From NCBI GenBank assembly GCA_033391075.1, contig JAWPMV010000004.1:62001-126000 (forward strand): a stretch of 64,000 nt of DNA, written 5' to 3'. This stretch comes from Bacteroidia bacterium (lineage in GTDB: Bacteria > Bacteroidota > Bacteroidia > J057). Positions 17,055 through 35,302 of the stretch are shown here, piece after piece (within the stretch, counting starts at the first letter, position 1; every line of letters starts with the position of its first letter). Made by a program: the position numbers and the translations under genes. Below the pieces are notes generated by a model. The model saw nothing but the letters and a program-made list of their open reading frames with translations, was not told the DNA's origin and did not search any database.

Positions 17055-17091
17055 AAAGGTAAGCCTGGAACAGCTTACCTTTTCTTTTTTT
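17055..17091 (+). terminator. Intrinsic terminator
   Basis: A 10-bp stem, AAAGGTAAGC (17055-17064) and GCTTACCTTT (17073-17082) with an 8-nt loop, is followed by TCTTTTTTT. It ends the plus-strand gene at 17023 and abuts the stop of the opposing endonuclease gene. Confidence 0.85.
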
Positions 17092-18135: not shown

Positions 18136-18771
18136 TCATTGATGGATATGTTGGAGGAAATTGATGGCTTTTGTTTTGATTTTATCATAGGCTTCCAGCT
18201 CAAGATCTTCTTTATTCACCAAAGAGCCGCCTAAACCCAGTGCGACCGCTCCCAGAGAAATCCATTCTTTAGCATTATCTATATTCACTCCTCCAGTTGG
18301 CATAAGCGGGATTTGACTGAGGGGCCCCTTGACTGCTTTGAAGTAGCCAATACCCATAGCATTTGCGGGGAACACTTTGATTACATCTGCACCTGCTTCC
18401 CAGGCCATCAAAATCTCAGTAGGAGTCATGGCGCCCATAAAAACAGGGATTCCATGTTCATGGGCAGTTTCGATGATCTCTTCTTTGAAAATGGGCGTGA
18501 CAATGAATTGTGCACCCGATTTAGCAGCATTGGCAGTATCCTTGCTACTAATTACAGTGCCGGCCCCTATGAGGGTATTTGCTGGAGAGTTTTTTCTCAA
18601 ATGCTTTATATGATCCAAAGCGTTTGCCGAATTAAGGGTAATCTCCAATACCTCAATGCCGGCCTCCATGATCGCCTTAGCCGTAGGTAAAACCTTTTGG
18701 CTTTCTGAGATTCTCAGAATTGCCATAAGTTTATGGGTGAATATTTTATCAAGAATTTCCGTTCTTGTCAT
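18136..18771 (-). CDS. KDPG/KHG-family aldolase (bifunctional 2-keto-3-deoxy sugar-acid aldolase)
   Basis: At 211 aa this is a normal class I KDPG/KDPGal aldolase. The catalytic Glu is in VLEIT (Glu43), the substrate-loop GAGTV is at 69-73, the Schiff-base Lys is in DVIKVFPA (Lys132), and the phosphate-binding PTGGV is close to residue 158. It cleaves 2-keto-3-deoxy-6-phospho-gluconate or -galactonate to pyruvate and glyceraldehyde 3-phosphate. The divergent neighbour 87 nt away is a 2-keto-3-deoxygalactonokinase, which argues for the galactonate (De Ley-Doudoroff) branch. I leave the symbol blank because eda and dgoA cannot be told apart from sequence alone. Confidence 0.9.
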   Translation of the reverse strand: MTRTEILDKIFTHKLMAILRISESQKVLPTAKAIMEAGIEVLEITLNSANALDHIKHLRKNSPANTLIGAGTVISSKDTANAAKSGAQFIVTPIFKEEIIETAHEHGIPVFMGAMTPTEILMAWEAGADVIKVFPANAMGIGYFKAVKGPLSQIPLMPTGGVNIDNAKEWISLGAVALGLGGSLVNKEDLELEAYDKIKTKAINFLQHIHQ

Positions 18772-18837
18772 AAAAGAATAATTTCACTTTGCCTTTTTCT
18801 GTATTTATTGAGCTAAAATTTGGGAATCATTCTCCCA

Positions 18838-18854
18838 GATCAAAATTATTGATC
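18838..18854. promoter_or_regulatory. Palindromic operator candidate between aldolase and kinase genes
   Basis: GATCAAaattaTTGATC is a perfect 6-5-6 inverted repeat ending 4 nt before the kinase start codon. A second, weaker inverted repeat, TGGGAatcattcTCCCA, lies just upstream (about 18822-18838). Either could bind a regulator shared by the divergent genes. No regulator gene is adjacent. Confidence 0.4.
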
Positions 18855-18858
18855 GTAA

Positions 18859-19824
18859 ATGTATCAGTATAATGTGCTTATGAGTTGCGACTGGGGTACT
18901 TCTTCCTTTCGCCTACGCCTTGTCGAGACAGAAACAGCTGAAATCCTGTACGAAATCCATTCTAATGAGGGGATTAAGAGCAGTTTTGCCAAATTCTCAT
19001 CTGAAATCGGAAAGTACGATGAGATCGAAAAGATGTATAAACGCTTTCTGATGGATAAAATCAGGCTTTTGGAGCGAAAATCCGGAGCTACCCTGATGCA
19101 TGTCCCAATTATTTTCTCTGGTATGGCCAGTTCGTCCATAGGCATACGCGAACTTCCCTATGGAGAACTTCCTTTTCGATTTGATCGGGTGAGCTTACCC
19201 TATGAATGGATGCAGGCTGAAGAATTTTTCCCCTATAATATTTTGTTAATATCTGGCTTGAAAAAAGAAGGGGATGTCATGCGAGGAGAGGAAACACAAC
19301 TCATCGGCCTTTCAAAAGTCAGAGATATCAATAATAGCCTTATCCTGATGCCTGGAACCCATTCCAAGCATATGTTAATCGGCACAAATGAACTGCTGGA
19401 TTTCAAAACTTATATGACCGGTGAGTTTTTCGAACTTATCAGTAGGCATTCTATTCTGAGCCACTCGATCGAACTTCCGGAGGATCATCATGATTACCTG
19501 GCTTTTAGACATGGAGTAAAAGAAGGGGCTGAAGGAAATCTACTGAATCGTTTGTTCCGTGTACGGACCAATAGCTTATTTGAAAAATTAAATAAGAAAG
19601 CAAATTACTATTATTTGAGTGGACTGATTATTGGCTCCGAACTAAAAGAAGTCGAGGCTTTGCGGCCAGAACGAATCTTTTTGTGTGGAGAGGGAGTGAT
19701 TAAAAAATTATATAAAGAGGCCCTTTCCAAGCTGGGATATGCCGATCAGCTAGAGATCGTAGATGGAGATGGATTGAACCTTAGTGTTCAGGGGCACTTG
19801 CAAATTTTGTATCACTTGCAATGA
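18859..19824 (+). CDS. dgoK: 2-dehydro-3-deoxygalactonokinase (DgoK family)
   Basis: The 321-aa sugar-acid kinase begins with the ASKHA phosphate-binding motif SCDWGTSSFRLRL (residues 9-21). It also shows the family strings VPIIFSGMASSSIG (about 83-96), ELPYGELPF, MRGEETQLIG (about 141-150), LMPGTHSKHM (about 163-172) and YMTGEFFELISRHS (about 184-197), and a C-terminal LSGLIIGSELKE plus IFLCGEGVI. It phosphorylates 2-keto-3-deoxy-galactonate at C6, making the substrate of the divergent aldolase. The enzymes that would make the substrate (galactose dehydrogenase, galactonate dehydratase) are not in the window. Its 3' end overlaps the opposing kinase gene by 13 nt. Confidence 0.87.
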   Translation: MYQYNVLMSCDWGTSSFRLRLVETETAEILYEIHSNEGIKSSFAKFSSEIGKYDEIEKMYKRFLMDKIRLLERKSGATLMHVPIIFSGMASSSIGIRELPYGELPFRFDRVSLPYEWMQAEEFFPYNILLISGLKKEGDVMRGEETQLIGLSKVRDINNSLILMPGTHSKHMLIGTNELLDFKTYMTGEFFELISRHSILSHSIELPEDHHDYLAFRHGVKEGAEGNLLNRLFRVRTNSLFEKLNKKANYYYLSGLIIGSELKEVEALRPERIFLCGEGVIKKLYKEALSKLGYADQLEIVDGDGLNLSVQGHLQILYHLQ

Positions 19825-22163
19825 TTCATGGGCAGGCATATGGTAAATACAGCTCCTTTGCCTATTTCCCCTTTTGCACTAATATTTCCTTCATGTCGCA
19901 GGAGGATTTGCTGAACATTTGCGAGTCCAACTCCTGAACCTGTATATTTTTGTCCCGTATGGAGGCGCTCAAAGAAGTTGAACAATCTGTCCGCTTCCTT
20001 CATGTCGAATCCTACGCCATTATCCTGAAAATGTACGAAAACTTTATTAGGCTCTTCTTCTGCCCATATCTTGATTATGGGAGGATCAGAATCCTGACTA
20101 TATTTTATGGCGTTTGATATGAGGTTGTCCATCATGCTATACATCATGGATTTGTCTGCATAGACTTTGGGCAGCCGAGAAATTTCCCACTGGATATGGG
20201 GAAAGCTTCTTTTGGGTGCAATGCTTTTTCTGGAATTACGCAAGACTTTGTTGAGATCGACCCATGATCTTTGGAGGCTAACTTTTCGGGTCCATGCATA
20301 TTCGAGTAGATCCCGTGTCATAAGGTCAATTCTTTCTGAAGCAGAAATGATCCCTTGCAGATAGGAAATACCTTCTGTAGATAATTTATCTTTCGCTTCT
20401 TCCATCAACCACTCACTGAAGCCCTCTATATGAGCCAGGGGTGTCCGTAGGTCATGCGTTACGGAATAAATCCATTGTTCAAGTTCGTCTTGGGTTTTGA
20501 TGAGTTCGTTCAACGTATTGATTTCCAGGGTAACGTCTTTTGTTGTTCCCATCAATTTTGTCCCCTGATCCCAATTTGTATAGGTACTGCGCAACCATTT
20601 TGAATGCCCATCAGGTAAATGTATCTGGTAGTCCAAACTTTGGGATTCTTTCAGGTCCTTACTTTTACTGGCGACCGCCTGAATTTTAGCCAAATCATCG
20701 CTAGAAAGCCGCGAAATGATTTGCTGATATAATTCATCTGGATTTTTTGAAAACTCCTCCAACTCATACAGCTTTGGCAAGCCCGGCGAAGGTGTAAGTT
20801 TCTTAGACTCCAGATCAAAAATCCAGGAGGAACTTTTAGAAACCCGTTCTCCCTCTAACATGAGGAGTCTTTGTTGTTCAAAGGCTTTATTTATTCTCTT
20901 GACTTCCTGATCCTTGAATACTTGTTCGCTGATGTTTTCGATGATGGCTATTACCTCAATTTCCTTTTCTCCCGTAAGTAACATCCGAGATATAGTCATC
21001 TTAACATAAATGATCTCTCCATTTTTGTGGATGTATCGTTTAACAAAGTCTGCAGATGTCTTTTCTCCGGAAACTACCTCCTTAAATAAACCCAAATTGC
21101 TATTTACATCATCTTCATGGGTGAATTTTTTGAATGCTTGACCCTGTATTTCAGGAATTTCGTAACCGATTATTTGTGAGTAGGCTGGATTTGTAAACTG
21201 AATGATTCCTTCTGTCGAACACAGGCATATTCCCATAGGGGCATTTTGTGCAAGGGTCTGGAATCTTTTGAGGCTTTGGACTTGCCTGTCTTCATAGATG
21301 GAACGCTCCAACTCAAAGGCGACATGACGGGAAAAATGAATGAGGGTCGTTTCCGGAATCCAGTCCAACTCCATTTCTTCTTCTCCAAACATCACTAAGT
21401 GTCCGATGATCTCTTCTGCTGAATCGAAAAGAGGAAGGCCATAATAGCTATGCAGGATTTTGTCCTGTAGGAAAGTGTCTTTGGGAAAGAGGGTTTGAAT
21501 ATTCCGAGGGAAAAAGACAGGAGCCCTGTGTTCAAAAATGAGTTCACAGGGGGTATCCTCAAGTTTGTAGGAACTTTCTCTGAGGTGATCTTTGGCCCAA
21601 AATGCTTTTGCCAGGATATTCTCTTCTTCTCGCTGGTATTCTCCGATGATCACATAGGGAATGGGTAAAGCCTCTGCTATACCTTTTGCCAGCCTTTCAA
21701 AGATATTTCCGCTGAACTCTTCTTTCTGGGTGATGTTCAACAGATTGAGAAATTGATGGAGGAGATCATTCTCGGATACACTACTCAAGGCGAGGATTGC
21801 GGCACTGTCAGACTGCTTATCTTCCCGTAAATCTTTAATAAGACTGAATTTAACCCGAACTCTTTTTCCATCTTTCTTCATGAGATCCCATTGAAAGATC
21901 TGTTTTTCCAGGAGTCCGGCAGCCTGTTGATCTAACCATTGATGAAGTTGAAATTCTTTTCCTGGCGGGATAAAATAAGAAAGATTGAGGCCCAACAATT
22001 CCTCAGGCTCAAAATTCAAAATGTCGCAAAAATCAGGATTTAGATCACGAATAACTCCTTTCCTGTCGAGTTCCACAATTCCATAAAGATTGCGGTCCAA
22101 AAATCTTGTGGATTGATTCTTTCCTCTTATCTCCCCTGCATATGTGATCACATGGTTGTCCAT
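19812..22163 (-). CDS. Multi-PAS/GAF sensor histidine kinase (orphan)
   Basis: The 783-aa protein has no signal peptide or TM helix and should be cytosolic. In order: a PAS domain (about 22-130, GIVELDRKGVIRDLNPDF then LLGLNLSYFIPP), a GAF-like domain (about 140-290), a second PAS (about 300-420, APMGICLCSTEGIIQFTNPA and YIHKNGEIIYVKM), a third PAS with PAC (about 435-560, LDYQIHLPDGHSKWL), then a HisKA dimerisation domain with the phospho-acceptor His in YSVTHDLRTPLAHIEGF (about 570-640). The HATPase domain ends the protein with NLISNAIKYS, DNGVGFDMKEADRLF, and GSGVGLANVQQIL. No response regulator adjoins it. This is a phytochrome-like or redox-like soluble sensor architecture, but no chromophore-binding Cys motif is evident. 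Confidence 0.9.
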   Translation of the reverse strand: MDNHVITYAGEIRGKNQSTRFLDRNLYGIVELDRKGVIRDLNPDFCDILNFEPEELLGLNLSYFIPPGKEFQLHQWLDQQAAGLLEKQIFQWDLMKKDGKRVRVKFSLIKDLREDKQSDSAAILALSSVSENDLLHQFLNLLNITQKEEFSGNIFERLAKGIAEALPIPYVIIGEYQREEENILAKAFWAKDHLRESSYKLEDTPCELIFEHRAPVFFPRNIQTLFPKDTFLQDKILHSYYGLPLFDSAEEIIGHLVMFGEEEMELDWIPETTLIHFSRHVAFELERSIYEDRQVQSLKRFQTLAQNAPMGICLCSTEGIIQFTNPAYSQIIGYEIPEIQGQAFKKFTHEDDVNSNLGLFKEVVSGEKTSADFVKRYIHKNGEIIYVKMTISRMLLTGEKEIEVIAIIENISEQVFKDQEVKRINKAFEQQRLLMLEGERVSKSSSWIFDLESKKLTPSPGLPKLYELEEFSKNPDELYQQIISRLSSDDLAKIQAVASKSKDLKESQSLDYQIHLPDGHSKWLRSTYTNWDQGTKLMGTTKDVTLEINTLNELIKTQDELEQWIYSVTHDLRTPLAHIEGFSEWLMEEAKDKLSTEGISYLQGIISASERIDLMTRDLLEYAWTRKVSLQRSWVDLNKVLRNSRKSIAPKRSFPHIQWEISRLPKVYADKSMMYSMMDNLISNAIKYSQDSDPPIIKIWAEEEPNKVFVHFQDNGVGFDMKEADRLFNFFERLHTGQKYTGSGVGLANVQQILLRHEGNISAKGEIGKGAVFTICLPMNHCK

Positions 22164-22493: not shown

Positions 22494-22763
22494 ATGAAAT
22501 ACATGCTTCTATGCTTTCTTCTACTTGTTTGTCAGGCTCCTCTTCGTGGCCAGGGCAACCAGCACAAGTTTGAAAAGCAATGCCTTCTCTCCCAGGATCC
22601 AGTTAAAGGGAAAAAGAGTAAACCAGCAGCCAAGACTTGTAAGCCTGTCAAGCCTTTAGCAAAAAACAAATCCAAAACTTCCAGAAAGACTAGCCGCAAA
22701 AGAGGAAATATGGGGAATAGTGGTGGAAGGGGTAATATGTACTTTGCCAGAAATAATCCTTAA
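22494..22763 (+). CDS. Small, very basic secreted protein
   Basis: The 89-aa product has a clean signal peptide (MKYMLLCFLLLVCQAPLRGQ). The mature part of about 70 residues is extremely rich in Lys, Arg and Ser (GKKSKPAAKTCKPVKP, KTSRKTSRKRGN) and ends in a Gly/Asn-rich tail (MGNSGGRGNMYFARNNP). It has two cysteines in the mature chain. No family is recognised. The charge would allow binding to nucleic acid, polyanionic glycans or the membrane, but nothing proves it. Its stop codon overlaps the stop of the opposing TPR-kinase gene. Confidence 0.55.
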   Translation: MKYMLLCFLLLVCQAPLRGQGNQHKFEKQCLLSQDPVKGKKSKPAAKTCKPVKPLAKNKSKTSRKTSRKRGNMGNSGGRGNMYFARNNP

Positions 22764-24586
22764 TCAATACGAGGAATCTCCATAAAGAATTTTGTACCCT
22801 TGCCAGGAGCGCTTTCTATGTTCCACTTCCCTTCGATATTTTCCAGGCGTGAAGTGATGTTTCGGATTCCATAGCCATTGGTCATTTGGTCTATATCAAA
22901 CCCTTTCCCATCATCGCTAACGGTAATGAGAATATGTTGTGCCTCTTCCGAAATACTGATCCATCCATGATCTGCATCCGCATGCTTAAGGATGTTGTTG
23001 ATCATTTCGAAAATAATATTGTAAATGGGGTAGGTGAGTGAACCAAAATCAAAATCAGGTCCCGTATTAACAACCAATTGAAATTTGACCTTATTATTTT
23101 GCTTTAGCTGCGTCAAAAGACTTTCCAAAGCCGAGATGAGTCCGAGGGTTTCTACCTTCTCAGGCATAAGGTTGTGAGAAATGAGACGTACATCCCCGTA
23201 GACATCATTGACCAGCTCAAGGGTTTTATTCAAAATCCTCTGCGCTTTTTCATCAACAGAAGGATTGATAGCTTCCAGTTGCCAGCGAATCGCAGCAATT
23301 TTGGTATTGAGATTGTCGTGAAGCTCTACAGCCATTCGCTTCCGTTCGAGATTCTGACCTCTTAATTGAGCCAGCAGGATTTCCTGGTTCTTTTTCTTAA
23401 GCTCTTTATTCTTTTTCCGCAGACTAAAATTCAGCCAACTGATAAATCCAATCAAAATACCTCCGATGATGGCCAGCCACATGAGGTAGTCGCGGCTTTG
23501 TTGTAGATTCTTATTTTGCAGGCGGTAAATTTCTTCTTCCTTTTCTTTACTCTCATACTTTGCCTCAAGTTCTGCAAAACGCGCTGTAGCCTCCTCTTTT
23601 TTCATGCTGTCCTGAGCCGCAATGTATTTTTCATAATAATGCAGCGCCTCTTCATATTTACCTAAAGATTTATAGGTCGAATAGAGATGATTGTCGGCCC
23701 TTGCGATGAATTCTATCCAGCCAGCTGCTTCTACATATTCATAGGCCTTTAATTTAAGTTCCAGGGCTTCCTCAAAATTCCCTCCATCTTCATACACTTC
23801 GGCTTTGTCAACGTAGAGCGCATAGATCACTCCATAGTTTTGCCATTTTTCTGCTTCCTCCAGAGATTTTTTAAAATAGCTTTCAGATTCTTTTAGCCTG
23901 CCCAATCTTCGGTACACATTGGCCAGTCCCAGATAATTATCAGCTTTGAAATAACCTTGCCAGCCCCATTCTTCCAGCACCTGATCTGTGAGTTGATAAT
24001 AATAGAGGGCGGAGTCAAATTTTTCCTGACGAAAGGCACTATAGTAATAGTAGTCTCCAAAAAAATTGAGGGTCAGGATCTGGTTTTTTCTATGGTCTGC
24101 CAGTTTTGCATACTTATAGCCTTCTTTCAAGCTTTTGAAAGCCTGTTCATGCAGTTGAGTATTGAGGAGGATAAAGCCGGAACCAATCAGGGCCGTAGAT
24201 AAATCCTGGTAGTCGGGCCCGCTTTCTCTCAGGATTTCTATGGCTGAATTATAGTATTGCAAGCCTTGATCCATATCGCCATCCAGTTCGAAGAAGCGAG
24301 CTTGTACCCTTTGTAGAATGCCCTGAGCTTTGGGCCAGTCAGAAGCCTTACACAAAGTTGTCAGGCTATCAATCAATGCTTCGAGATTATTCTCTCGATC
24401 ATTGATTTTATAGATAGCATAAGCCGCATAATTTCTGATGGAAACACTGTCTCGCTCCTGAGGATCTGCTATCTGGAGTTCTGCCTGAAATTTGCGGAAC
24501 AGAGAATCTGCATTTTGCCCCTTTAGTTGGAGGCTGCCAGTGATTCCCAGAAGGATAATCAACAAATATGCTTTTCTAATACTCAA
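22760..24586 (-). CDS. TPR-sensor histidine kinase (HisKA_3, NarX/LiaS type)
   Basis: The 608-aa kinase starts with a signal peptide (MSIRKAYLLIILLGITGSLQLKG) and a periplasmic stack of TPR repeats (about 60-345), such as YQDLSTALIGSGFILLNTQ, ADNYLGLANVYRRLG and EALELKLKAYEYV. A coiled-coil (EATARFAELEAKYESKEKEEE) leads to one TM helix (about 368-390, YLMWLAIIGGILIGFISWL). The HisKA_3 dimerisation domain carries the phospho-acceptor in RMAVELHDNLNTKIAA, and the HATPase has NNILKHADA, SDDGKGFDI and GYGIRNITSR. Its partner is the NarL-type regulator directly upstream, overlapped by 4 nt. It is the last gene of the six-gene operon that begins with the FHA-protease at 30283. Confidence 0.9.
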   Translation of the reverse strand: MSIRKAYLLIILLGITGSLQLKGQNADSLFRKFQAELQIADPQERDSVSIRNYAAYAIYKINDRENNLEALIDSLTTLCKASDWPKAQGILQRVQARFFELDGDMDQGLQYYNSAIEILRESGPDYQDLSTALIGSGFILLNTQLHEQAFKSLKEGYKYAKLADHRKNQILTLNFFGDYYYYSAFRQEKFDSALYYYQLTDQVLEEWGWQGYFKADNYLGLANVYRRLGRLKESESYFKKSLEEAEKWQNYGVIYALYVDKAEVYEDGGNFEEALELKLKAYEYVEAAGWIEFIARADNHLYSTYKSLGKYEEALHYYEKYIAAQDSMKKEEATARFAELEAKYESKEKEEEIYRLQNKNLQQSRDYLMWLAIIGGILIGFISWLNFSLRKKNKELKKKNQEILLAQLRGQNLERKRMAVELHDNLNTKIAAIRWQLEAINPSVDEKAQRILNKTLELVNDVYGDVRLISHNLMPEKVETLGLISALESLLTQLKQNNKVKFQLVVNTGPDFDFGSLTYPIYNIIFEMINNILKHADADHGWISISEEAQHILITVSDDGKGFDIDQMTNGYGIRNITSRLENIEGKWNIESAPGKGTKFFMEIPRID

Positions 24587-25221
24587 ACCAGCTTGTATTT
24601 CAGCGCAAATTTAACGAGGCCGATGGAATTCCTTACATCCAGCTTTTTGAAAATATTATGTCGATGGGTTTCAACCGTCCCCAAACTGATAAATAGCTTT
24701 TCTGCAATCTCAGAAGAAGAATGCTCCTGAACAATCAATTTGATGATTTCAATCTCTCGCTTTGTCAGATGTTTGAGTTTATCTGCCTGATCCGCATCGG
24801 GATTTGCTGTAAGCAGAGATTTCATGACTTCCTGACTGAAATGCAACTGTCCCGCTGCTACTGTTCTTATTGCTTCTTCCAGCTCTTTTCGGTCTGCTTT
24901 CTTCATAACATAACCCGAAATCCCTGCTTTGAAGGCATCCTGAATCCGGTCGCCCTGGTCGTTTACAGTTAGCATCAGGATTTTCATATCCGGAAACTTC
25001 TCTTTCACCTGAAAACTCAATTCAATCCCACTGATATAGGGCATCGTCAGGTCTGTTATCAAAACGTCCACCTCCAGTAGTTCAAGCGCTTCCAGAACCT
25101 TTCGGCTGTCATTGATTGTTTTGATAACCTCTATTCCTTCCATCAGGTCAAAGAGCAATTCCAGGCTATCGAGGATGATCTGGTGATCATCAACCAAAAG
25201 GACTCGAATAGGCTTTGACAT
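24583..25221 (-). CDS. NarL/FixJ-family response regulator
   Basis: The 212-aa protein has a receiver domain (about 1-120) with VLLVDDHQII, the phosphorylated Asp in VDVLITDLTMPYISG, and GYVMKKADRKELEEAI. The C-terminal LuxR-type helix-turn-helix (about 145-208) reads LTKREIEIIKLIVQ, SSSEIAEKLFISLGTVETH and NIFKKLDVRNSIGLVK. It is the cognate regulator of the TPR-kinase encoded next on the same strand, with an ATGA overlap. It lies 11 nt downstream of the outer-membrane barrel gene, so its transcription is probably tied to the Ser/Thr kinase module upstream. Confidence 0.93.
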   Translation of the reverse strand: MSKPIRVLLVDDHQIILDSLELLFDLMEGIEVIKTINDSRKVLEALELLEVDVLITDLTMPYISGIELSFQVKEKFPDMKILMLTVNDQGDRIQDAFKAGISGYVMKKADRKELEEAIRTVAAGQLHFSQEVMKSLLTANPDADQADKLKHLTKREIEIIKLIVQEHSSSEIAEKLFISLGTVETHRHNIFKKLDVRNSIGLVKFALKYKLV

Positions 25222-25232
25222 ATAAAGCGATC

Positions 25233-25865
25233 TTAGTGAAAGAAATAAGTCAAACCAATATGGAGGCTGGTAATGGTAAAGTCAAGCTTTTCGTCCAAAT
25301 TGTTTACCTCTGTACCAGAAAGGGAGGCTGTACTAAAATTGCCAAATGCAATTTTTCCATTGGCATTGATGCTCAGGTTTTCTGTGAAGAAGAAATGAAG
25401 CCCTCCTCCTGCACTGAATCCAACTCCACTGCTTTCCAGACGGAAGACATTTATTCCATCAAAGGTAATCGGATCGATATTGAGGGCATGTACGCTCAAT
25501 GCGACTTCGAGGAAGGGACGTACTCTCCTCAGTGTAGCTCCAAAATTGTAGCGTCCCCCGATTTCCAGATTGCCCAGGAAGTAGCTATCCCAATCAAATT
25601 CCTGACGGAATCCCAGGCTACTAAAAGCGAGCATGAGTTCAATATTCTGATTGATGCCGTAAGCAGCTTTTAAGCCAATCCCGTATCCAGCGGGTTCCAG
25701 GTCGTCCAATTCTCCGAAAAAGACACTTTCTGAGTTCCAGCTTCCATAGACCCCATTGAGATTGAGGGAGAAGCCTTTGGTATTTGAACGGATATCCTGT
25801 GCGGATACTTTCCCCAAAAATAAAAGGAGGACAAAAAGACTGCTTATATATTTCAAGTTTTGCAT
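25233..25865 (-). CDS. Outer-membrane beta-barrel protein (OprF/OmpX-like porin fold)
   Basis: The 210-aa product has a signal peptide (MQNLKYISSLFVLLLFLGKVSAQ) and about eight amphipathic strands, such as KGFSLNLNGVYGSW, YGIGLKAAYGINQNIELML, NLEIGGRYNFGA, FLEVALSVHALN, GVGFSAGGGLHFFF, LSINANGKIAFG and TITSLHIGLTYFFH. The C-terminal aromatic residue fits outer-membrane insertion. This is the 'outer membrane beta-barrel' fold common in Bacteroidota; ligand unknown. It sits 5 nt downstream of the Ser/Thr kinase gene and 11 nt upstream of the response regulator, inside one operon, so it may be a surface component or an output of the signalling module. Confidence 0.75.
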   Translation of the reverse strand: MQNLKYISSLFVLLLFLGKVSAQDIRSNTKGFSLNLNGVYGSWNSESVFFGELDDLEPAGYGIGLKAAYGINQNIELMLAFSSLGFRQEFDWDSYFLGNLEIGGRYNFGATLRRVRPFLEVALSVHALNIDPITFDGINVFRLESSGVGFSAGGGLHFFFTENLSINANGKIAFGNFSTASLSGTEVNNLDEKLDFTITSLHIGLTYFFH

Positions 25866-25870
25866 GATTT

Positions 25871-27706
25871 CTAATAGTTAAGGATGATATTCGTTGATTT
25901 TAGTTTGATCTTATTGATTCTTTGACCTCGATTAAAGCTTACTACTGTTTTGGACAGATTGCTGTACTCGGGATAACTGATCGCCAACCATCTGCCATTG
26001 CTGGCCTGTACCGAATGAAGCTGGATAGCGAGGAAGGCTTTTTTCTTGCCTTCAGAACGTCTGAGTTTTTTGATCTCTGCCCTTACTCTGGCACCTTTAG
26101 GAATGATCAGATGATCCCCTTGATAGATAGGGCTGATGGTTTGCAGGTAAACGGTTTGGCCGCTTGAATGTGTTTCCGTAGAAACTGTTTCTGCAAAACT
26201 GGCTGCCAGGTACATATCCGGTATGCGGACTTTAACGGAGCCTTTGTATTTACTTTCTTTGACTATCGGTTTGCTTTCCTGTTCTCGGGCTACCGGAGGC
26301 TTTGGCTCTTCTTCAATCCGTTCTTCACGGACTGTTTTTTGAATCGGTTTCTTTTCCTCTTTTTCTACGATTCTGTCGGGACTCTTCTCAACCTGGGTTG
26401 TACTTGTTTTTTTAGTCTCGGAGCCTGATTTGTTTTCGTTGCTTTTGTTGCTTTCTTTTTCTCGCGAGTCTTTCCTCAGGCTCCTTTGCCCATTTCCCGA
26501 TTTTGTTTCCTCCTTTTCCTTTGGAGCCGAATCAAACTTTTCGATAAACTCAATCTCCTGAGGACTTGCTTGCTGGGGAAGTACCGTATTTGAGCCCAGC
26601 AGTCTCGAATCATTTTCATTGCCCTCCTGAACCAACTCTCGTTTATCTTCTACTGATCTTTGTCGGGGATCTATGGGATCTGTTCCCTGATCATCGCCAC
26701 CAAATAATCCCATGATGAGAATGAACAGACAAAGAAGAGCTGCACCCGCCAGTATTCTCAGGTCAATGTCGAAAGGTAATTTTGTGTCTTTCAGCTTTGA
26801 AAAAGAGAAATTCCGAACAGGTAAGGTAACAGGAATTGCGGGGCTCTTTCTACTTTCTTTCTTCTCGATTCTTTGACTTAGAAGACGGGTATCGATCTTG
26901 GCATTTCTGTGGATGCTTTCCAGCTCTCTAACAGCTTCGTCCGTACTTTGATAACGTTTCCCTGCCTGCTTATGAGTGAGCTTCTTTATAATCTGGACGA
27001 GCTTTCGATTATGTCCCTGAAGGTTGAAAGTGGGACTCTTGTGAGCAATATTGTACATCAGGGCTGCTTCGCTATCTCCCGCATACAGGCTCTTTCCTGA
27101 TAGCATCTCGTAAAGCATGACACCTACTGCATAGAGATCCGAACTCTTTGAGGGTGCTCCGCCGGTTACCAGTTCGGGAGCGAGGTATTCGAGGGTTCCG
27201 ATGACGCTATTTTGTCGGGTCATCCGCTCAGTATTTTCCAATCGAGCGATCCCAAAGTCCATCAGTTTGACAAATCCGCGTTGAGTGATCATGATATTCC
27301 CTGGCTTGAGGTCTCTATGCATGATTCCCAAATCGTGTGCTGCGCCTAATCCTTCGAGGACCTGGATACAGATTTTGACCGCTTCTTCTTCCGGAATTTC
27401 TCCCTGAAGTTTAAGAACATCATCCAGGGCTTTTCCTTCCACGAATTCCATGACGATGAAGTGAGAATGATCTACTTCCCGGAAATTGAAAAGGGTTGCA
27501 ACATTGGGATGAGAGATTCTGGCGGAAAGATGTGCCTCATTCTGAAATCTTTTGAATGAATCAGGATTATTCACCAGAAAAGGATGCAGCATTTTGATGG
27601 CTACTGTACGCTTCAAGTGTAGGTCAGTAGCTTTATATACAGTGCCCATTCCCCCTTCACCAATGCGTTCATTGATATGGAAATTGGACAATTTGCGGCC
27701 AATCAT
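25871..27706 (-). CDS. Hanks-type Ser/Thr protein kinase with C-terminal extracytoplasmic domain
   Basis: The 611-aa kinase has a complete eukaryote-like catalytic domain (about 8-265): glycine loop GEGGMGTVYKA, ATP-binding Lys38 in VAIKML, catalytic loop HRDLKPGNIM (Asp132), DFG at 150-152, and GTLEYLAPELV. One TM helix follows (about 318-338, AGAALLCLFILIMGLFGG), then a long Glu/Lys/Ser-rich linker (about 345-490). The C-terminal 120 residues form a beta-rich domain (SGQTVYLQTISPIYQ, HLIIPKGARVRAEIKKL, AFLAIQLHSVQ) that resembles VirB10/TrbI-like C-terminal domains in pattern ('IPKGa.v.a.i'). The kinase should sit in the inner membrane with this domain outside. It overlaps the PP2C gene by 4 nt, giving a kinase/phosphatase pair. 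Confidence 0.92.
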   Translation of the reverse strand: MIGRKLSNFHINERIGEGGMGTVYKATDLHLKRTVAIKMLHPFLVNNPDSFKRFQNEAHLSARISHPNVATLFNFREVDHSHFIVMEFVEGKALDDVLKLQGEIPEEEAVKICIQVLEGLGAAHDLGIMHRDLKPGNIMITQRGFVKLMDFGIARLENTERMTRQNSVIGTLEYLAPELVTGGAPSKSSDLYAVGVMLYEMLSGKSLYAGDSEAALMYNIAHKSPTFNLQGHNRKLVQIIKKLTHKQAGKRYQSTDEAVRELESIHRNAKIDTRLLSQRIEKKESRKSPAIPVTLPVRNFSFSKLKDTKLPFDIDLRILAGAALLCLFILIMGLFGGDDQGTDPIDPRQRSVEDKRELVQEGNENDSRLLGSNTVLPQQASPQEIEFIEKFDSAPKEKEETKSGNGQRSLRKDSREKESNKSNENKSGSETKKTSTTQVEKSPDRIVEKEEKKPIQKTVREERIEEEPKPPVAREQESKPIVKESKYKGSVKVRIPDMYLAASFAETVSTETHSSGQTVYLQTISPIYQGDHLIIPKGARVRAEIKKLRRSEGKKKAFLAIQLHSVQASNGRWLAISYPEYSNLSKTVVSFNRGQRINKIKLKSTNIILNY

Positions 27707-28563
27707 GATAGTTTTATTTTTTGAGTTTCCTTATTAGAAAGCTCTGGATTAGGATAAAAGGTCTCGGCAATCAAGACGGAGATATTGTCATGTCCTCCGC
27801 GTTTCTTTGCCAGGTCAATGAGTTTGTCTGCGACTACGCTTAGTTTTTCATTTTTCAGAAATTGAAGCATCTCCTCATCCTTGATGTACTCGTATAGGCC
27901 ATCGCTACAGATCAGCAGTTTATCACCTTCTTCAAATTTTTGCTTTTGTAATTGGTAGTCCGCTTGGAGTTTGGCTGAAGTTCCCATAGCCTGGGTGATG
28001 ACATTCCTTTGTGGGTGACTCAGACTTTCTTCATAGGTGATCTTTCCTTTGTTGAGCAAATGCTGGACATAGGTATGATCATTGGAAAGCTGTATCAATT
28101 TTTCTCCTTTCAGAATATAGGCCCGGCTGTCTCCTACATGTGCCAGATAAATCTGGTCTCTGAGTAAAACAACTGCTGTGCAGGTGGTTCCCATGCCTTT
28201 GAGTTGGGGCCTGCGAGAAGCCTTCTGAAAAATGGCTTTGTTGGCTTTGTCAAAAGCTCTTTTGAGCGCATCCAGTACTTCGAAATGCGTGTCGAAGTAA
28301 TTTCTGGTGATGATTTCACTCGCCATTTTGGAGGCAATCTCTCCGCTGCTATGACCGCCCATTCCGTCGGCAACCAATGCCAGACAACCGTGGCTGGCTC
28401 TGATCTTTTTGTCGAAAGGTCTGATGAATACCAGGTGGTCTTCATTGTTGTCGCGAACTGAGCCCACATCGGTGGCCGCTACTGCTCTGTAGTCGATCTC
28501 AACCAGGCCACTTTGTGGTACTTCAGCGAGTCGTTTCTTTTTTCTCCGGAAAAGGAAAGTCAT
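27703..28563 (-). CDS. PP2C-type Ser/Thr protein phosphatase
   Basis: The 286-aa cytosolic phosphatase has the PPM metal-binding motifs: VGSVRDNNEDHLVF (about 34-47), LVADGMGGHSSGEIAS (about 63-78), AHVGDSRAYIL (about 140-150), LLICSDGLYEYI (about 216-227) and GGHDNISVLI (about 257-266). These supply the Asp residues that hold two Mn2+/Mg2+ ions. It removes phosphates placed by the Hanks kinase encoded next, with which its gene overlaps by ATGA. The N-terminus is a short basic stretch (FRRKKKRLAEV). The FHA-protease gene ends 40 nt upstream, so all three are co-transcribed. Confidence 0.93.
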   Translation of the reverse strand: MTFLFRRKKKRLAEVPQSGLVEIDYRAVAATDVGSVRDNNEDHLVFIRPFDKKIRASHGCLALVADGMGGHSSGEIASKMASEIITRNYFDTHFEVLDALKRAFDKANKAIFQKASRRPQLKGMGTTCTAVVLLRDQIYLAHVGDSRAYILKGEKLIQLSNDHTYVQHLLNKGKITYEESLSHPQRNVITQAMGTSAKLQADYQLQKQKFEEGDKLLICSDGLYEYIKDEEMLQFLKNEKLSVVADKLIDLAKKRGGHDNISVLIAETFYPNPELSNKETQKIKLS

Positions 28564-28603
28564 AGCTTTGGGAGTGAAGATTGCAATGGAAGTGATAAGA
28601 GAA

Positions 28604-30283
28604 TTATTGGATCACAGGATTCAGGTGCATGAGGTCCAGACCGTATTTGATCGGTATAGCGAAGGTGATTCTGGCGCCTTCCTGAGAAGTTGTTGAGGCT
28701 GCGAAAATCGCGATCACTTTTCCATCTTTGTCAAATACAGGGCCTCCGCTATTTCCAGATCCGGTTTCACTGGCTGTAAGCTGGTAGTATTCTCCCATAG
28801 GACTGTAGTAGGCATTCAGTTCAGCATTGTTGACCATATTTGATCCGCGAATGATTTTGCCAATGGTTCCATCTGTGATGGTCGGATCAGGAACGATCTT
28901 CACTTCTGAGCTTGCGCGACCAAACTCACGGGTAGCTCTTCCATACACTACTGAAGGAGAAATACCAGGATATCCCATAACAGCGATCTTTTGTCCCTGT
29001 GCTACTTCATAGCCATCTTCTTTCAATTCAACAGGATTGAAACTGGCAGTATGGTCTATTTTAAGCATAGCGACATCATGATTCGGACTGGATTGAACAA
29101 AACGTGCATTGATGCGAGAATCCGTTTTAGCGAAGGTGACGTTCATGTAGGTCCGTTGTCCGTCAAGAATTTTTCCGGAGATAGGCTCACGTCCAAAGAA
29201 TTTGGTTTCAGAAGGAATCCAGCGAGAAGGAGCATTTACAGTACCCGTGATTTTCCATTCACCATTTACAAACTGATAGAGCATTCCCTGAGCAGCTTCT
29301 GGCGGAAAGGAATATGGATATTTCCAGGGCTCGGCGATGTGTTTATTTGTCAGGATATATCCATCCTCATCTACTATAAAACCGGTTCCAGATAACTGAG
29401 ACATTGCAATAGGTGCTCCTTCTTCAACATCTTTTCTTAATCCTAAAAGAGGTTCGATGACTCCTTGTTCCATTTCAATGTAGAGAGGCATGAGGTACTC
29501 TTTGCCTGTTTTGGGATCTTTTTGTCTTGTGTATTGATGGTAGATATCGTCTCCGGTAGGAGCATGAATTAGTTTGAAGCCAAATTCGATGAAAACTACT
29601 TTCTCTGTGTTTTCTCTCGCAATTACTTCAGGTGAAAATTGGGTTGGAATAGGAGGAAGGTCCTGTTGAACGACAATGGTATCTTTTCCGACTGGGCCGT
29701 TATTCGCAGGTAGCAATTTGTCTTTGAATGTGTAACCTAGAGTAGTCGCAACGAGCAGAACTGCTGCGATAACAGAAATCAGGGTTTTTTGGGAACGTTT
29801 TCTTTCTGTAACAATCGCTCTTTCGAAGGTTTCTTTTCCTATACCATCTTTTGCAGGTTCTACCTGAGCTTCGAGATTGTATTCCATAGTAGCATCTGCT
29901 GCAGGGATATTGATGAGTTGGGTTGCAGCGCTGTCGCTCATTCTTGGATTCAAGTCAAATTGAAAGCGAGGTCCTTTTGCTCCCAAAGAGACTTCATCTC
30001 CTGGATTCAGGTTTTGGCTTCCATTTACCTTTTGTCCGTTTACATAGGTGCCATTGAGGCTGTTATTGTCGGTGATAACAAAACTACCGAAACTCTCTCC
30101 TTTAGTGATGTTTCCATGTTCGCGGCTTACCGCATTATCTTCTTGTGAATCGAATTGTAGATCATTCTGCGTAGCGCGTCCGAAGCTAATTGTATCGTTA
30201 GCCTGGTAATCAAATTCCTCTATCTGGTTAGCTTTGCCACCGTTGAGGTGTTTGATGATGATGTGTCTTATCTCTTTATTCAT
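28604..30283 (-). CDS. FHA-domain membrane protein with trypsin-like (HtrA-type) serine protease
   Basis: The 559-aa protein joins a phosphothreonine-reading FHA domain (about 20-110; ISFGRA, NAVSREHGNI, DNNSLNGTYVNG) to a single TM helix (about 168-185, LISVIAAVLLVATTLGYTF) and a periplasmic trypsin-like protease domain (about 295-550). The catalytic triad is intact: His315 in TNKHIAE, Asp403 in NHDVAMLKID, and Ser512 in GSGNSGGPVF. No PDZ domain is seen. The topology places the FHA in the cytosol, where it could bind phosphoproteins made by the Hanks kinase, and the protease outside. This suggests inside-out control of proteolysis. It is the first gene of the six-gene operon; its own upstream region holds a 20-bp palindrome about 120 nt away. 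Confidence 0.9.
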   Translation of the reverse strand: MNKEIRHIIIKHLNGGKANQIEEFDYQANDTISFGRATQNDLQFDSQEDNAVSREHGNITKGESFGSFVITDNNSLNGTYVNGQKVNGSQNLNPGDEVSLGAKGPRFQFDLNPRMSDSAATQLINIPAADATMEYNLEAQVEPAKDGIGKETFERAIVTERKRSQKTLISVIAAVLLVATTLGYTFKDKLLPANNGPVGKDTIVVQQDLPPIPTQFSPEVIARENTEKVVFIEFGFKLIHAPTGDDIYHQYTRQKDPKTGKEYLMPLYIEMEQGVIEPLLGLRKDVEEGAPIAMSQLSGTGFIVDEDGYILTNKHIAEPWKYPYSFPPEAAQGMLYQFVNGEWKITGTVNAPSRWIPSETKFFGREPISGKILDGQRTYMNVTFAKTDSRINARFVQSSPNHDVAMLKIDHTASFNPVELKEDGYEVAQGQKIAVMGYPGISPSVVYGRATREFGRASSEVKIVPDPTITDGTIGKIIRGSNMVNNAELNAYYSPMGEYYQLTASETGSGNSGGPVFDKDGKVIAIFAASTTSQEGARITFAIPIKYGLDLMHLNPVIQ

Positions 30284-30401: not shown

Positions 30402-30421
30402 TCTATAGGTTTACCTATAGA
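30402..30421. promoter_or_regulatory. 20-bp palindrome in the divergent spacer
   Basis: TCTATAGGTttACCTATAGA is a perfect 9-2-9 inverted repeat in the 346-nt spacer between the Ser/Thr kinase operon (starting at 30283, minus) and the TonB receptor operon (starting at 30630, plus). It has the size and symmetry of a dimeric repressor or activator site. The rest of the spacer shows no gene or RNA; a GGC/GCC stem near 30375-30392 followed by a T-run is too weak to call. Confidence 0.45.
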
Positions 30422-30629: not shown

Positions 30630-31367
30630 ATGAAACTACGCTGCTTTTTCCTCTCTCTGATTTACCTATTTGCTTGCTTTTTCACCCAGGCTCAAGGCCT
30701 GAAAGAGGAGGTGCTCCAGGTCCAAAAACAAGAAATCGCTGATATGTATGAGTCAGAGTTTGGGGACATTCGGGACCTTATCAGTGGTCGTGAGCATCAA
30801 GCGATTTTTCACTTTACCCTTGGCCACCCTTTCTGGCAACAAAAAGCCTGGTTTCTGGGAGATTTGAGAACAGACCTTCATTATTATTCCGGTCTGACTA
30901 TGCGATATGATGTGTACCGGGATTTATTGTTATATCTCCCGGATTCAATTTCAGTAGACTATATGGCCGTAAATCAGGACCAGGTGGAATACTTCAGCCT
31001 GAATGGGACACATTTTTTTCATTTAGGTATAGGTGAGGAAAAAGCGGCCATGGATGAATTGGAAATGGAGAAAGGATATTATCAACTCCTCTATAAAGGC
31101 AGCTTGCTTATGTACCTCAAAAACCGGAAGGAGTTGAAAGGGAAAAGTGGGGATCCCCGAAATCATAGTGAATTTTATGACCGTTTCAGCAGGTATTTAT
31201 ATCTGGATGGAAAATTTTATTTGATAAAAAAACGAAAACATTTGTTGAGGGCTTTGCCCAAGCACAAAACCGAAATGAAAGCCTACCTTAGAAAGAACCA
31301 TATAAATCTTAAAAAACTTTCTGATGCAGGCTATGCACGCTTATTCAGCTACTACGACTCTTTATGA
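30630..31367 (+). CDS. Secreted protein of unknown function, first gene of the TonB receptor operon
   Basis: The 245-aa product has a Sec signal peptide (MKLRCFFLSLIYLFACFFTQAQ). The mature part starts with a Glu/Gln-rich helix (GLKEEVLQVQKQEIADMY) and then mixed strands: HQAIFHFTLGHPFWQ, GLTMRYDVYRDLLLYL, VEYFSLNGTHFFHLG, then a Tyr/Lys-rich region (GYYQLLYKGSLLMYLKNRK) and a basic C-terminal helix. The signature GLTMRYDVYRDLLL plus FYLIKKRKHLLRAL resembles the pattern of small Bacteroidota proteins encoded beside STN-domain receptors. I do not know a function. It overlaps the TonB receptor start by 4 nt, so a related role at the outer membrane is likely. Confidence 0.65.
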   Translation: MKLRCFFLSLIYLFACFFTQAQGLKEEVLQVQKQEIADMYESEFGDIRDLISGREHQAIFHFTLGHPFWQQKAWFLGDLRTDLHYYSGLTMRYDVYRDLLLYLPDSISVDYMAVNQDQVEYFSLNGTHFFHLGIGEEKAAMDELEMEKGYYQLLYKGSLLMYLKNRKELKGKSGDPRNHSEFYDRFSRYLYLDGKFYLIKKRKHLLRALPKHKTEMKAYLRKNHINLKKLSDAGYARLFSYYDSL

Positions 31368-34141
31368 AACAGCTTTACTGCATCAGTATTTGTCTACTCT
31401 TCTTGCTGACTGGCAAGATAGGGAGGCTGGCTGCCCAGGAGACTGAGATTATGATTCACAAGAATTATAACCAGCGAGATTTTAAGGAATTTGTTCAGGA
31501 AGTAGAAAGCGAGCGAAAGCTCAAATTCTTTTACCTGGATAGCTGGGTGGATAGTCTGCAAATTATCCAGAGAACAAGTCCTCAAAGTCTCCGCGAGATT
31601 TTATCTGCCAGCCTCGCATCCCGCCAACTAAGTTTTGTCATAGATGATAAGCGGCGAATCATCCTTTCCCTTTCGCCCATCAGAAAGGAGCTCAAAACTC
31701 AAAGTGTACGAGCCCGGCGTATGCAGGTGCCTGAAGGTAGCAAAGACCTCATTGCATATTCTCAACTATTAGCAGTCAAACCGGACCTTTCTAATGAAGA
31801 AATAGTGCGGGTATATGATATCGGAAGTTCAGATGTCAATAAAGAGGAAGCGACAATTGTCGGCTATGTGAAGGATGAGGATACAGGAGAACCCATTATT
31901 GGAGCTACTGTTTTCGTTGCAGATTTGAAGCTGGGAGTGAATACCGATCAATACGGCTATTATTCCCTGACATTGCCCACGGGAAATCATATGCTTACTT
32001 ACAGGAGCTATGGTAAAGAAGAAAAAGAGCAGGAAGTAAACCTTTTTGATGATGGAAAACTGGATATGGAGATGGAGGATGCGATTCGTCAATTGGATGT
32101 GGTTTTGATTGAGGCAGAAAGGGATGAAAATGTAGAAAGTTCCCAAATGGGCTTGACTACGCTCGGTATAAACGCCTTGAAACAAATGCCAACCTTTATG
32201 GGAGAGATTGATGTGATCAAGTCTGCCATATTATTGCCCGGTGTACAGACCGTAGGGGAGGGGGCATCAGGTTTCAATGTTCGGGGAGGTAGTACAGGCC
32301 AAAATCTGATACTCATCAATCAGGCACCTATTTTCAATTCCTCCCATCTATTTGGCTTTTTCTCTGTATTCAATCCGGACATCATCAAAAATTTTGACCT
32401 TTATAAAAGTGGTATCCCCGCCAGATATGGAGGAAGGATTGCTTCTGTTCTGGATATATCGATGAAAGATGGCAATAAGAAAGAATTTGTCGCTTCCGGA
32501 GGGGTAAGTCCTGTTACTTCTCGCCTGACTGTTGAAGGGCCGCTTAAAATGCAGAATAGTTCCTACATCATAGGTGCAAGAAGTACCTACTCCAATTGGA
32601 TTCTGCAAGAACTGGAAGAGCTTTCTTTCAGAAATAGTAAAGCCTTTTTTGGTGATCTTAATGCAAAGGTAAATTTGGAACTTAGCCGGAAGGATCGTCT
32701 GGATATCGCCGGCTATTTTAGTCAGGATAATTTTACGCTCAACCAGGATACTGCCTATTCCTATAATAACCTCAATGGTTCCATCAATTGGAAACATCTC
32801 TTCAACAATAAGTTGTACGCGGTTACGTCCGGAATTTTTAGCCGATACAGATTCAATGTAAAATCCGAGTCCAGCCTGGAGAATGCTTTTAAGCTCAATT
32901 ACCAAATTCTCTACAATGAGCTGAAAACAGATTTCACCTATATCCCGGAGCCCAACCATCAGTTTCGCATGGGGGCAAATGCGATTTATTATCAGCTCAA
33001 TCCCGGTACCCAAATTCCCCTAAATCCGGAGTCTTTGATTCGTAATCAAACCCTCGAACAGGAACAGGCCGTGGAATCCAGCATCTATTTTAGTGATGAA
33101 TGGGATGTGAATCCTCGCTTGAAATTATATGGCGGAATCAGGCTTTCGGGCTATGCACTTCTCGGCCCCAATTCCGTAAACCTCTATCGCCCCGGACAGC
33201 CATTACAACCAGAAAACATCATTGATAGTACGCAGTATGGGTCTGGAAGTATCGTTAAGTTTTATGGAGGACCTGAAATCAGACTTTCGGCCAGATATTC
33301 TTTAGATGAAAAAAGTTCTGTTAAGCTGAGTTTCAATCGCCTGCGCCAATACCTGCATATGCTTTCCAACACTACCTCAATTTCTCCCACAGATAGCTGG
33401 AAATTGAGTGATCCCTATATCAGGCCTCAGGTAGGAGATCAGCTGTCTTTAGGTTTTTACCGAAACTTCCGCCAAAACAGCATAGAAAGCTCAGTGGAAT
33501 TGTATGTGAAAAATATCGGGGACATGATCGAATTTAAGAATGGCGCACAGCTATTGTTAAATCCGGAAATAGAAACAGATGTGATCAATGCAAGAGGAAG
33601 AGCTTATGGAGTAGAGTTCTTGCTACGGAAAGATCGGGGAAAACTCAATGGATGGATCAGTTATACTTATTCACGGGTTTTTTCCGAAATCAACGGGCAA
33701 TTTCCGGATGAAATCATCAATGGCGGGGAACGTTTTCCAGCCAATTTTGATAAACCTCATGATATTTCTTTTGTAGGGAATTATAAATTTTCTCGCCGTC
33801 TCAGCATATCCAGTAATTTCGCCTACAGTACAGGAAGACCTATTACGTATCCTGTCTCCCAATTCCGTTTTGGCAATACGACCCGACTCAATTATTCTTT
33901 GAGAAATCAGTTTCGCATTCCGGATTATTATCGCTGGGATTTCTCGATCAATCTCGAAGGAAACCACCGGAATACGAAGTTCGCTCATACTTCCTGGTCC
34001 CTTTCATTCTTCAATATTCTGGGCCGCAAAAATGTCTACTCCATCTATTTCGTAAGTACTCCGACAGGCGTACAGGGATACAAACTATCCATATTCGGCC
34101 GCCCAATCACAACCCTAACTTTCAACTTCAAGATCCTATGA
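31364..34141 (+). CDS. TonB-dependent outer-membrane receptor with STN and carboxypeptidase-regulatory-like domains
   Basis: The 925-aa receptor has a signal peptide (about 1-24), a secretin/TonB short N-terminal (STN) domain (about 28-100, FVQEVESERKLKFFYLDSW and REILSASLASRQLSFVI), and a CarboxypepD_reg-like beta-sandwich (about 163-235, GYVKDEDTGEPIIGATVFV). The plug (about 255-370) contains LPGVQTVGEGASGFNVRGGS, LILINQAPIFNSSHLFGFF, and ARYGGRIASVLDISM. The rest is a 22-strand-type barrel ending in an aromatic-rich strand (RPITTLTFNFKIL). An STN domain often talks to a periplasmic anti-sigma factor, but no FecR/ECF pair is next to it. It is coupled by 4-nt overlaps to the genes on both sides. 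A DUF4249 lipoprotein follows, a common partner. The transported ligand is unknown. Confidence 0.92.
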   Translation: MKQLYCISICLLFLLTGKIGRLAAQETEIMIHKNYNQRDFKEFVQEVESERKLKFFYLDSWVDSLQIIQRTSPQSLREILSASLASRQLSFVIDDKRRIILSLSPIRKELKTQSVRARRMQVPEGSKDLIAYSQLLAVKPDLSNEEIVRVYDIGSSDVNKEEATIVGYVKDEDTGEPIIGATVFVADLKLGVNTDQYGYYSLTLPTGNHMLTYRSYGKEEKEQEVNLFDDGKLDMEMEDAIRQLDVVLIEAERDENVESSQMGLTTLGINALKQMPTFMGEIDVIKSAILLPGVQTVGEGASGFNVRGGSTGQNLILINQAPIFNSSHLFGFFSVFNPDIIKNFDLYKSGIPARYGGRIASVLDISMKDGNKKEFVASGGVSPVTSRLTVEGPLKMQNSSYIIGARSTYSNWILQELEELSFRNSKAFFGDLNAKVNLELSRKDRLDIAGYFSQDNFTLNQDTAYSYNNLNGSINWKHLFNNKLYAVTSGIFSRYRFNVKSESSLENAFKLNYQILYNELKTDFTYIPEPNHQFRMGANAIYYQLNPGTQIPLNPESLIRNQTLEQEQAVESSIYFSDEWDVNPRLKLYGGIRLSGYALLGPNSVNLYRPGQPLQPENIIDSTQYGSGSIVKFYGGPEIRLSARYSLDEKSSVKLSFNRLRQYLHMLSNTTSISPTDSWKLSDPYIRPQVGDQLSLGFYRNFRQNSIESSVELYVKNIGDMIEFKNGAQLLLNPEIETDVINARGRAYGVEFLLRKDRGKLNGWISYTYSRVFSEINGQFPDEIINGGERFPANFDKPHDISFVGNYKFSRRLSISSNFAYSTGRPITYPVSQFRFGNTTRLNYSLRNQFRIPDYYRWDFSINLEGNHRNTKFAHTSWSLSFFNILGRKNVYSIYFVSTPTGVQGYKLSIFGRPITTLTFNFKIL

Positions 34142-35301: not shown

Positions 35302-35302
35302 G

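Follow-up and report, generated by a model that had tools for sequence, protein, structure and literature searches.

A conserved six-gene signalling module of Bacteroidota that may couple a trans-envelope Ser/Thr kinase to a two-component controller

What brings a eukaryote-like Ser/Thr kinase, a phosphatase and a phosphothreonine-binding FHA protein together with an outer-membrane barrel and a two-component pair, and in which direction does control pass between the two styles of signalling? The question is raised by six consecutive minus-strand genes at 22760-30283 of a 64,000-nucleotide stretch of DNA from a Bacteroidia bacterium, hereafter the window, which is part of contig C4 (368 kb) in a five-contig genome of 9.49 Mb; all gene coordinates are positions in the window, and L and G numbers are the locus and genome labels of the analysis. 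In the answer favoured here, to which we would give a probability of roughly one half, the genes encode a Ser/Thr kinase system that spans the envelope and is governed by a two-component pair of its own. The original prediction, made from the sequence alone, had given the gaps between the genes as 40, -4, 5, 11 and -4 nucleotides and had assigned domains to every product; the open reading frame coordinates confirm the spacing exactly, and Pfam confirms all of the domain assignments. In the order of the minus strand the genes are:

28604-30283, minus strand: FHA-protease, 559 amino acids (FHA domain, transmembrane helix, periplasmic trypsin-like protease; Pfam FHA 1.6e-16, Trypsin_2 6.4e-20)
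27703-28563, minus strand: PP2C Ser/Thr phosphatase of the Stp1/IreP type, 286 amino acids (NCBIfam NF033484)
25871-27706, minus strand: Hanks-type kinase, 611 amino acids (kinase, transmembrane helix, linker, VirB10-like domain; Pkinase 2.8e-55, 188 bits)
25233-25865, minus strand: eight-stranded outer-membrane beta-barrel with signal peptide, 210 amino acids (OMP_b-brl)
24583-25221, minus strand: NarL/LuxR-type response regulator, 212 amino acids (Response_reg and GerE)
22760-24586, minus strand: TPR histidine kinase with periplasmic TPRs, 608 amino acids, TTG start (TPR, transmembrane helix, HisKA_3, HATPase_c; Pfam)

The regulator has the REC and GerE domains of the NarL/FixJ type and its partner the HisKA_3 and HATPase_c domains of the HisKA_3 type, with a transmembrane helix placed by hydropathy near residues 367-389. 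Consensus promoters and terminators occur within the operon no more often than expected by chance, and the Bacteroidota -33/-7 promoter motif was not found upstream of the operon in the window.

Conservation of the six-gene unit

The unit is a real, conserved and mobile-looking signalling module. It was followed through 37 loci, that of the window and 36 fetched by their FHA protein, in which the presence of the FHA gene is hence a matter of selection. The order FHA-protease, PP2C, kinase is held in all 37, and a barrel gene follows the kinase in 33. The complete six-gene order recurs elsewhere in Bacteroidota, in four Saprospiraceae and Lewinella metagenome-assembled genomes (L024-L027, found among GTDB genomes with the FHA-protease as query), whose flanking genes are all unmatched, and in G331, a genome of another family, at 37-60% identity; Saprospiraceae and Lewinella genomes of this kind are the closest named relatives of the unit. 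The order is kept in further genera and families although the genes around it are different, which goes beyond chance. Barrel and two-component genes do stand beside the kinase genes in other genomes, and their universal separation, which had been named as an outcome that would tell against the prediction, did not occur.

Among the 395 genomes of the class, the FHA-protease is found in only five, and the barrel family gave three hits, each beside the kinase, with none found elsewhere. A genome of the window's family but of another genus (G001) keeps the order and has no barrel, in G387 only the core is present, with neither barrel nor two-component genes, and G255 has the core with an extra kinase and a barrel; in the family of G255 the FHA-protease is present in 28 of 150 genomes. 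Many homologues carry a second Hanks kinase between the FHA-protease and PP2C genes, in some cases with a transmembrane helix and an extra C-terminal domain (L033:8659-9579; L084, L086-L095, L098-L103, L105-L107, L109), a gene that is missing from the window's lineage. No description of the gene set was found in the open-access literature.

The two-component pair and an upstream palindrome

In the window, its relatives and G331, the genes for the regulator and the histidine kinase come after that of the barrel or the kinase and are read in the same direction. In most genomes of G255's family the histidine-kinase gene is instead divergent from that of the FHA-protease, with the regulator gene beyond it, and G523 has both genes downstream, on the opposite strand. 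The best genome-wide match to the window regulator nevertheless has the module nearby in 14 of 15 genomes, and in G255's family an ortholog lies within 25 kb of it in 26 of the 28 module genomes, mostly in a different arrangement. Strong orthologs (E at most 1e-66) are present in 27 of those 28 genomes as against 3 of the 122 others (Fisher p 2.6e-25, uncorrected for shared ancestry). In a tree, 18 module regulators fall into one clade, inside which are only two close paralogs, both from module genomes; Asp57 of the REC domain is kept in 21/21, and the module regulators have in common a THRHNI recognition-helix motif that is missing from most paralogs. Since the linkage is kept through rearrangement, the association must be an old one, and it does not depend on a single transcript. 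The earlier idea of two signalling styles joined in one transcript stands as regards the linkage to two-component genes, but one transcript is not essential, the genes in most other genomes being divergent or several kilobases apart; that the six genes form one evolutionary unit is borne out, with the barrel family confined to the kinase's side and the regulator ortholog module-linked in most carriers.

How the two styles may be coupled is suggested by a feature upstream of the operon:

30403-30420 (18 bp; core TATAGGNNNNCCTATA, 30404-30419), no strand assigned: palindrome CTATAGG-N4-CCTATAG, predicted regulator site, from cross-locus conservation

The copy in the window is perfect, stands 120 nucleotides before the FHA-protease ATG and is the only site there with at most one mismatch. 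With up to two mismatches allowed, the palindrome occurs within 400 nucleotides upstream in 27 of the 37 loci, at distances of 106-179 nucleotides; the upstream region of L006 ends with its contig and was outside this check. Exact copies number 12 upstream and one in the remainder of the 663 kb, and that lone copy lies in the promoter region of the L033 histidine-kinase gene. The shorter form TATAGG-N4-CCTATA is found in 7 of 27 non-redundant upstream regions, compared with at most 3 in Markov shuffles. In L033, L090, L093 and L106 the histidine-kinase gene stands apart from the operon, with other genes in between, and the palindrome precedes both; it is missing upstream of the three loci without any two-component genes (L034, L084, L086). 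Near the regulator gene it was seen at 1 of 14 module regulator loci, where it was the operon site, and near the regulator paralogs it was not seen. The spacer is of A/T only and the half-site is TA[T/C]AGG. A reading of the palindrome as an RNA hairpin was rejected, because the C-A mismatches that many homologues have on the operon strand (TACAGG...CCTATA) fit the half-sites of a protein dimer and not a stem.

Because the conserved palindrome stands before both the operon and the histidine-kinase gene, the regulator probably binds it and controls transcription of the kinase operon. On this sequence evidence the coupling of the two styles of signalling looks transcriptional, passing from the regulator to the kinase operon, which is the reverse of the phosphate relay from Ser/Thr to His-Asp put forward in the original prediction. 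A literal relay was rejected on chemistry, as we know of no system in which phosphate is passed from phospho-Thr to Asp, and for the lack of candidate sites in the regulator: the recurring T-x-x-hydrophobic sites described below were found in the FHA linker, the phosphatase tail and some juxtamembrane segments of the kinase, whereas in the regulator just the generic threonines of the NarL family were seen.

A membrane protein of about 450 residues with the motif DEGFFxVLFDITKKHP is encoded beside the module in several loci (L033:13375-14772, L090, L092-L095, L103, L105, L106), and most of these genes have their own palindrome copy 37-126 nucleotides upstream. It is a probable third target of the regulator.

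A predicted trans-envelope layout and its rivals

What the kinase itself might sense is suggested by its architecture:

26948-27682, minus strand: kinase domain, residues 9-253 (Pfam)
27218-27220, minus strand: activation-loop Thr163 of the kinase
26699-26755, minus strand: transmembrane helix, residues 318-336 (hydropathy maximum 2.66)
26234-26698, minus strand: periplasmic linker, residues 337-491 (155), rich in Lys, Glu, Ser and Pro
25874-26233, minus strand: periplasmic C-terminal domain, residues 492-611, VirB10/TrbI-like predicted fold

The marks of a Hanks kinase (Lys, HRD, DFG and activation-loop Thr) are present, and K38, D132 and D150 are intact in all complete kinases. The linker is charged and of low complexity, and ranges from 104 to 243 residues in homologues. 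An AlphaFold2 model of the C-terminal domain built from five sequences had a predicted template modelling score (pTM) of 0.59, and VirB10 and ComB10 led its Foldseek list. With VIA-align the top 12 matches were all of the VirB10 family (Z 5.6-7.3 over 100-111 residues; next unrelated match 3.4), for a model whose predicted local distance difference test score (pLDDT) is 61. The sequence evidence, though weak, agrees with this: TrbI was the sole Pfam family to recur at E <0.01 for the domain, with matches in 4/9 and 2/26 members, and profile-profile comparison with VirB10/TrbI gave P 0.0023 in the same register, a barrel control giving 0.11. A sequence-only search of the PDB with the domain returned no VirB10 match. 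As modelled, the kinase shares the general plan of VirB10, an energy-sensing protein that connects the inner membrane with the outer one (PMC4182333). Because the predicted domain is without antenna helices, it is likelier to dock at the outer membrane, for example on the neighbouring barrel, than to insert into it. That barrel scores 31.8 bits with OMP_b-brl (cut-off 28.7) and is modelled with eight strands, its best match being NspA (4e-9), with OmpA, OmpX and Ail also matched. Small secreted proteins of about 180-240 amino acids with the same VirB10-like domain are found in other Bacteroidota (L040-L047).

The remaining two partners offer candidate phosphorylation sites:

29981-30190, minus strand: FHA domain, residues 32-101 (Pfam)
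28706-29389, minus strand: trypsin-like protease domain, residues 299-526 (Pfam)
29921-29923, minus strand: Thr121 of the FHA linker (ATQLI), candidate kinase site and FHA ligand (conserved column)
29888-29890, minus strand: Thr132 of the FHA linker, a second conserved Thr (14/15 clusters)
27724-27726, minus strand: Thr280 in the PP2C C-terminal tail (ETQKI), candidate FHA ligand (conserved column)

The FHA-protease has a single hydrophobic segment, near residues 168-186, and its predicted topology bears out the earlier proposal of a cytosolic FHA domain and a periplasmic protease, with which gating of proteolysis by phosphorylation is plausible. Its catalytic triad (H315/D403/S512) is intact in 36/37 and the phosphothreonine-binding FHA residues G35/R36/H56/N77 in 36/36, with S53 in 35; the metal aspartates of the PP2C (D42/D66/D221/D259) are present in 37/37, and its NF033484 score is 256.4 bits for a cut-off of 230. 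Among FHA linkers clustered at 70% identity, Thr121 is kept in 15/15 clusters and the neighbouring columns at 33-73%, and every homologue has a T-[QRKE]-[LVMFI]-[IVM] motif directly after the FHA domain. The Thr280 motif, T-x-x-[I/L/F/M], is found in 16 of 18 clusters when aligned and in 17 by eye (L086 being added), within a tail that is otherwise variable, all other columns of residues 268-286 being at 56% or less; a T-R-L sequence stands in the juxtamembrane segment of many kinases. A preference for a hydrophobic residue at the +3 position is established for several FHA domains. The T-x-x-hydrophobic sites of the FHA linker and the phosphatase tail are therefore candidate ligands of the module's FHA domain, such domains being known to bind phospho-Thr, sometimes intramolecularly (PMC4601284). 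In two homologues (G648, G684) the trypsin domain is swapped for another periplasmic domain and the FHA part retained, as would be expected if control acts through the FHA domain and the periplasmic enzyme provides the output. In the trypsin-less FHA proteins L111:10205-11899 and L142:1483-3177, which have no Pfam match there, the Cys/His pattern recalls transglutaminase-like enzymes.

A mechanism built on these features would begin with the TPR histidine kinase which, to judge from its family, would sense a periplasmic signal and set the state of the NarL-type regulator; this would bind the observed CTATAGG-N4-CCTATAG site and control the operon, here including its own genes. From the inner membrane, the kinase could extend its 155-residue linker to let the VirB10-like domain reach the outer membrane, where it would most likely meet the co-encoded eight-stranded barrel, and the envelope state reported in this way would set kinase activity. 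Substrates of the kinase would be the conserved Thr280 of the PP2C and, in the FHA linker, Thr121 and Thr132. These T-x-x-hydrophobic sites may then be bound by the FHA domain; binding in cis would make an on/off switch, and binding in trans a scaffold that recruits the PP2C. The output would be control of the periplasmic trypsin-like protease at the far end of the FHA protein. In this full form, a trans-envelope receptor kinase on the VirB10 plan, with the barrel reading the outer membrane, a phospho-switched FHA domain gating the protease and two-component control through the operator, the proposal is a tentative one.

A number of observations weigh against it. The C-terminal domain model has a mean pLDDT of 61 and Foldseek E-values of about 0.03; the TrbI (PF03743) sequence score of 16.5 bits is under the cut-off of 35, the profile-profile probability is 12%, and the modelled domain, of about 120 residues, ends after the core, without the outer-membrane antenna helices of VirB10. 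The barrel is dispensable, since L006 and L106 are without it. The hydrophobic +3 preference would apply by analogy, being taken from FHA domains other than that of the window, and the two homologues with a different periplasmic domain in place of trypsin show that the protease can be replaced. The regulator gene itself is without a palindrome, and five loci with a linked regulator are without a good one at the operon (L027, L085, L103/L105/L107, taken together as one genus, and L109).

A rival explanation is direct cross-phosphorylation, well known elsewhere, in which the Hanks kinase would modify the regulator or the histidine kinase on Thr or Ser and tune two-component output. CovR, VraR, WalR, RitR, DevR and others are substrates of eukaryote-like Ser/Thr kinases (PMC4601284, PMC12189002), and here the kinase and two-component genes are adjacent in the window and linked across families. 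However, the conserved Thr residues seen in the regulator are generic for the NarL family, with none standing out as specific to the module, and the DNA site already accounts for the linkage; we consider this route unlikely. The palindrome might, alternatively, belong to another transcription factor and the linkage have another cause, as the lack of a site at the regulator gene would allow; but the occurrence of the sites follows that of the two-component genes, the histidine-kinase gene itself is preceded by them, and the module regulators have a common recognition-helix motif, so we consider this somewhat less probable again.

About equally improbable is that two independent functions share a transcript, namely envelope maintenance by kinase, FHA protein and protease and an ordinary two-component system with periplasmic TPRs. 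Histidine kinases and NarL regulators of this sort abound in these genomes, G000 having 13 regulator paralogs and others as many as 26, and the core of G387 does without barrel and two-component genes, whereas orthology, co-occurrence and linkage survive rearrangement and the site is common to the histidine-kinase and kinase-operon promoters. Very little speaks for an anti-phage defence kinase system like PD-T4-6: although the kinase is hit by PADLOC's PD-T4-6 models at E-values as low as 3.5e-85, these models are themselves Hanks kinases and match mainly over the generic kinase domain, the protease and PP2C matches are weak and generic, and a scan of ten neighbours recognised no defence genes.

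If the trans-envelope kinase system with its own two-component controller is real, it would include a trans-envelope receptor kinase of a type not described before and would signal outside-in, with a cytoplasmic Ser/Thr kinase responding to the outer membrane. What the membrane Hanks kinases of Gram-negative bacteria sense is, to our knowledge, mostly unknown, and the VirB10-like sensor fold, the constant FHA and PP2C partners and the usual dedicated barrel would provide a testable answer. Ser/Thr and His/Asp signalling would be joined by a conserved link at the level of a DNA operator, with Thr121, Thr132, Thr280 and the 18-bp site as precise targets. The module is new as a variant of the known kinase/phosphatase/FHA theme, with no new chemistry.

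Other sensory genes are dense in the region, with a Reg_prop/His_kinase sensor, a PAS histidine kinase and a LytTR/His_kinase pair (13072-16176, 19812-22163, 37904-39654). Divergent from the kinase operon, closely spaced plus-strand genes (30630-37552) encode a TonB-dependent receptor-like protein, a DUF4249 protein and a further two that belong to no known family. The genes for a KDPG/KHG aldolase and a 2-keto-3-deoxy-galactonokinase are mutually divergent (18136-19824), and a DNA/RNA non-specific endonuclease gene (17090-18037) adjoins them.

Comparison with known systems

As in DegS/HtrA and MarP, the protease is a membrane-anchored periplasmic trypsin-fold enzyme with an intact triad; unlike them it has an N-terminal cytoplasmic FHA domain and no PDZ domain was found in it, and its scores are far below the HtrA, DegS and MarP cut-offs (58 of 416, 32 of 423 and 50.5 of 250 bits, respectively). 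VirB10, TrbI and ComB10 share with the kinase the succession of cytoplasmic part, single transmembrane helix, long periplasmic linker and C-terminal beta domain, the last being a prediction here. They differ in that the cytoplasmic part of the window protein is a kinase and that its domain, of about 120 residues, is missing the antenna helices and is under the Pfam threshold in sequence; furthermore, no VirB7 or VirB9 partner of the kind found in type IV secretion is near the window kinase.

The PASTA kinases PknB and StkP, with the phosphatases PstP and PhpP, offer the same combination of kinase, transmembrane helix and extracytoplasmic sensor, an Stp1-type PP2C and an FHA partner. In the window, however, the sensor is VirB10-like and stands behind a long linker in a host with an outer membrane, and the kinase has no Pfam match to PASTA repeats and reaches 298.5 of 450 bits with NF033483, over its kinase part only. 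A membrane Hanks kinase, a PP2C and an FHA protein are likewise encoded together in the threonine-phosphorylation pathway of the type VI secretion system, where PpkA, PppA and Fha1 have the envelope components TagQRST upstream of the kinase (PMC3953482). The window differs in the periplasmic protease borne by its FHA protein, in the VirB10-like end of its kinase and in having the barrel and two-component pair in place of TagQRST, and no type VI secretion families were found among the ten neighbouring proteins scanned. Ser/Thr and His/Asp signalling are also joined in the cross-talk of StkP with RitR, Stk1 with CovR and VraR, and PknB with DevR. In these known cases the kinase phosphorylates the regulator, whereas for the linked genes described here the evidence favours control of the kinase operon's transcription by the regulator.

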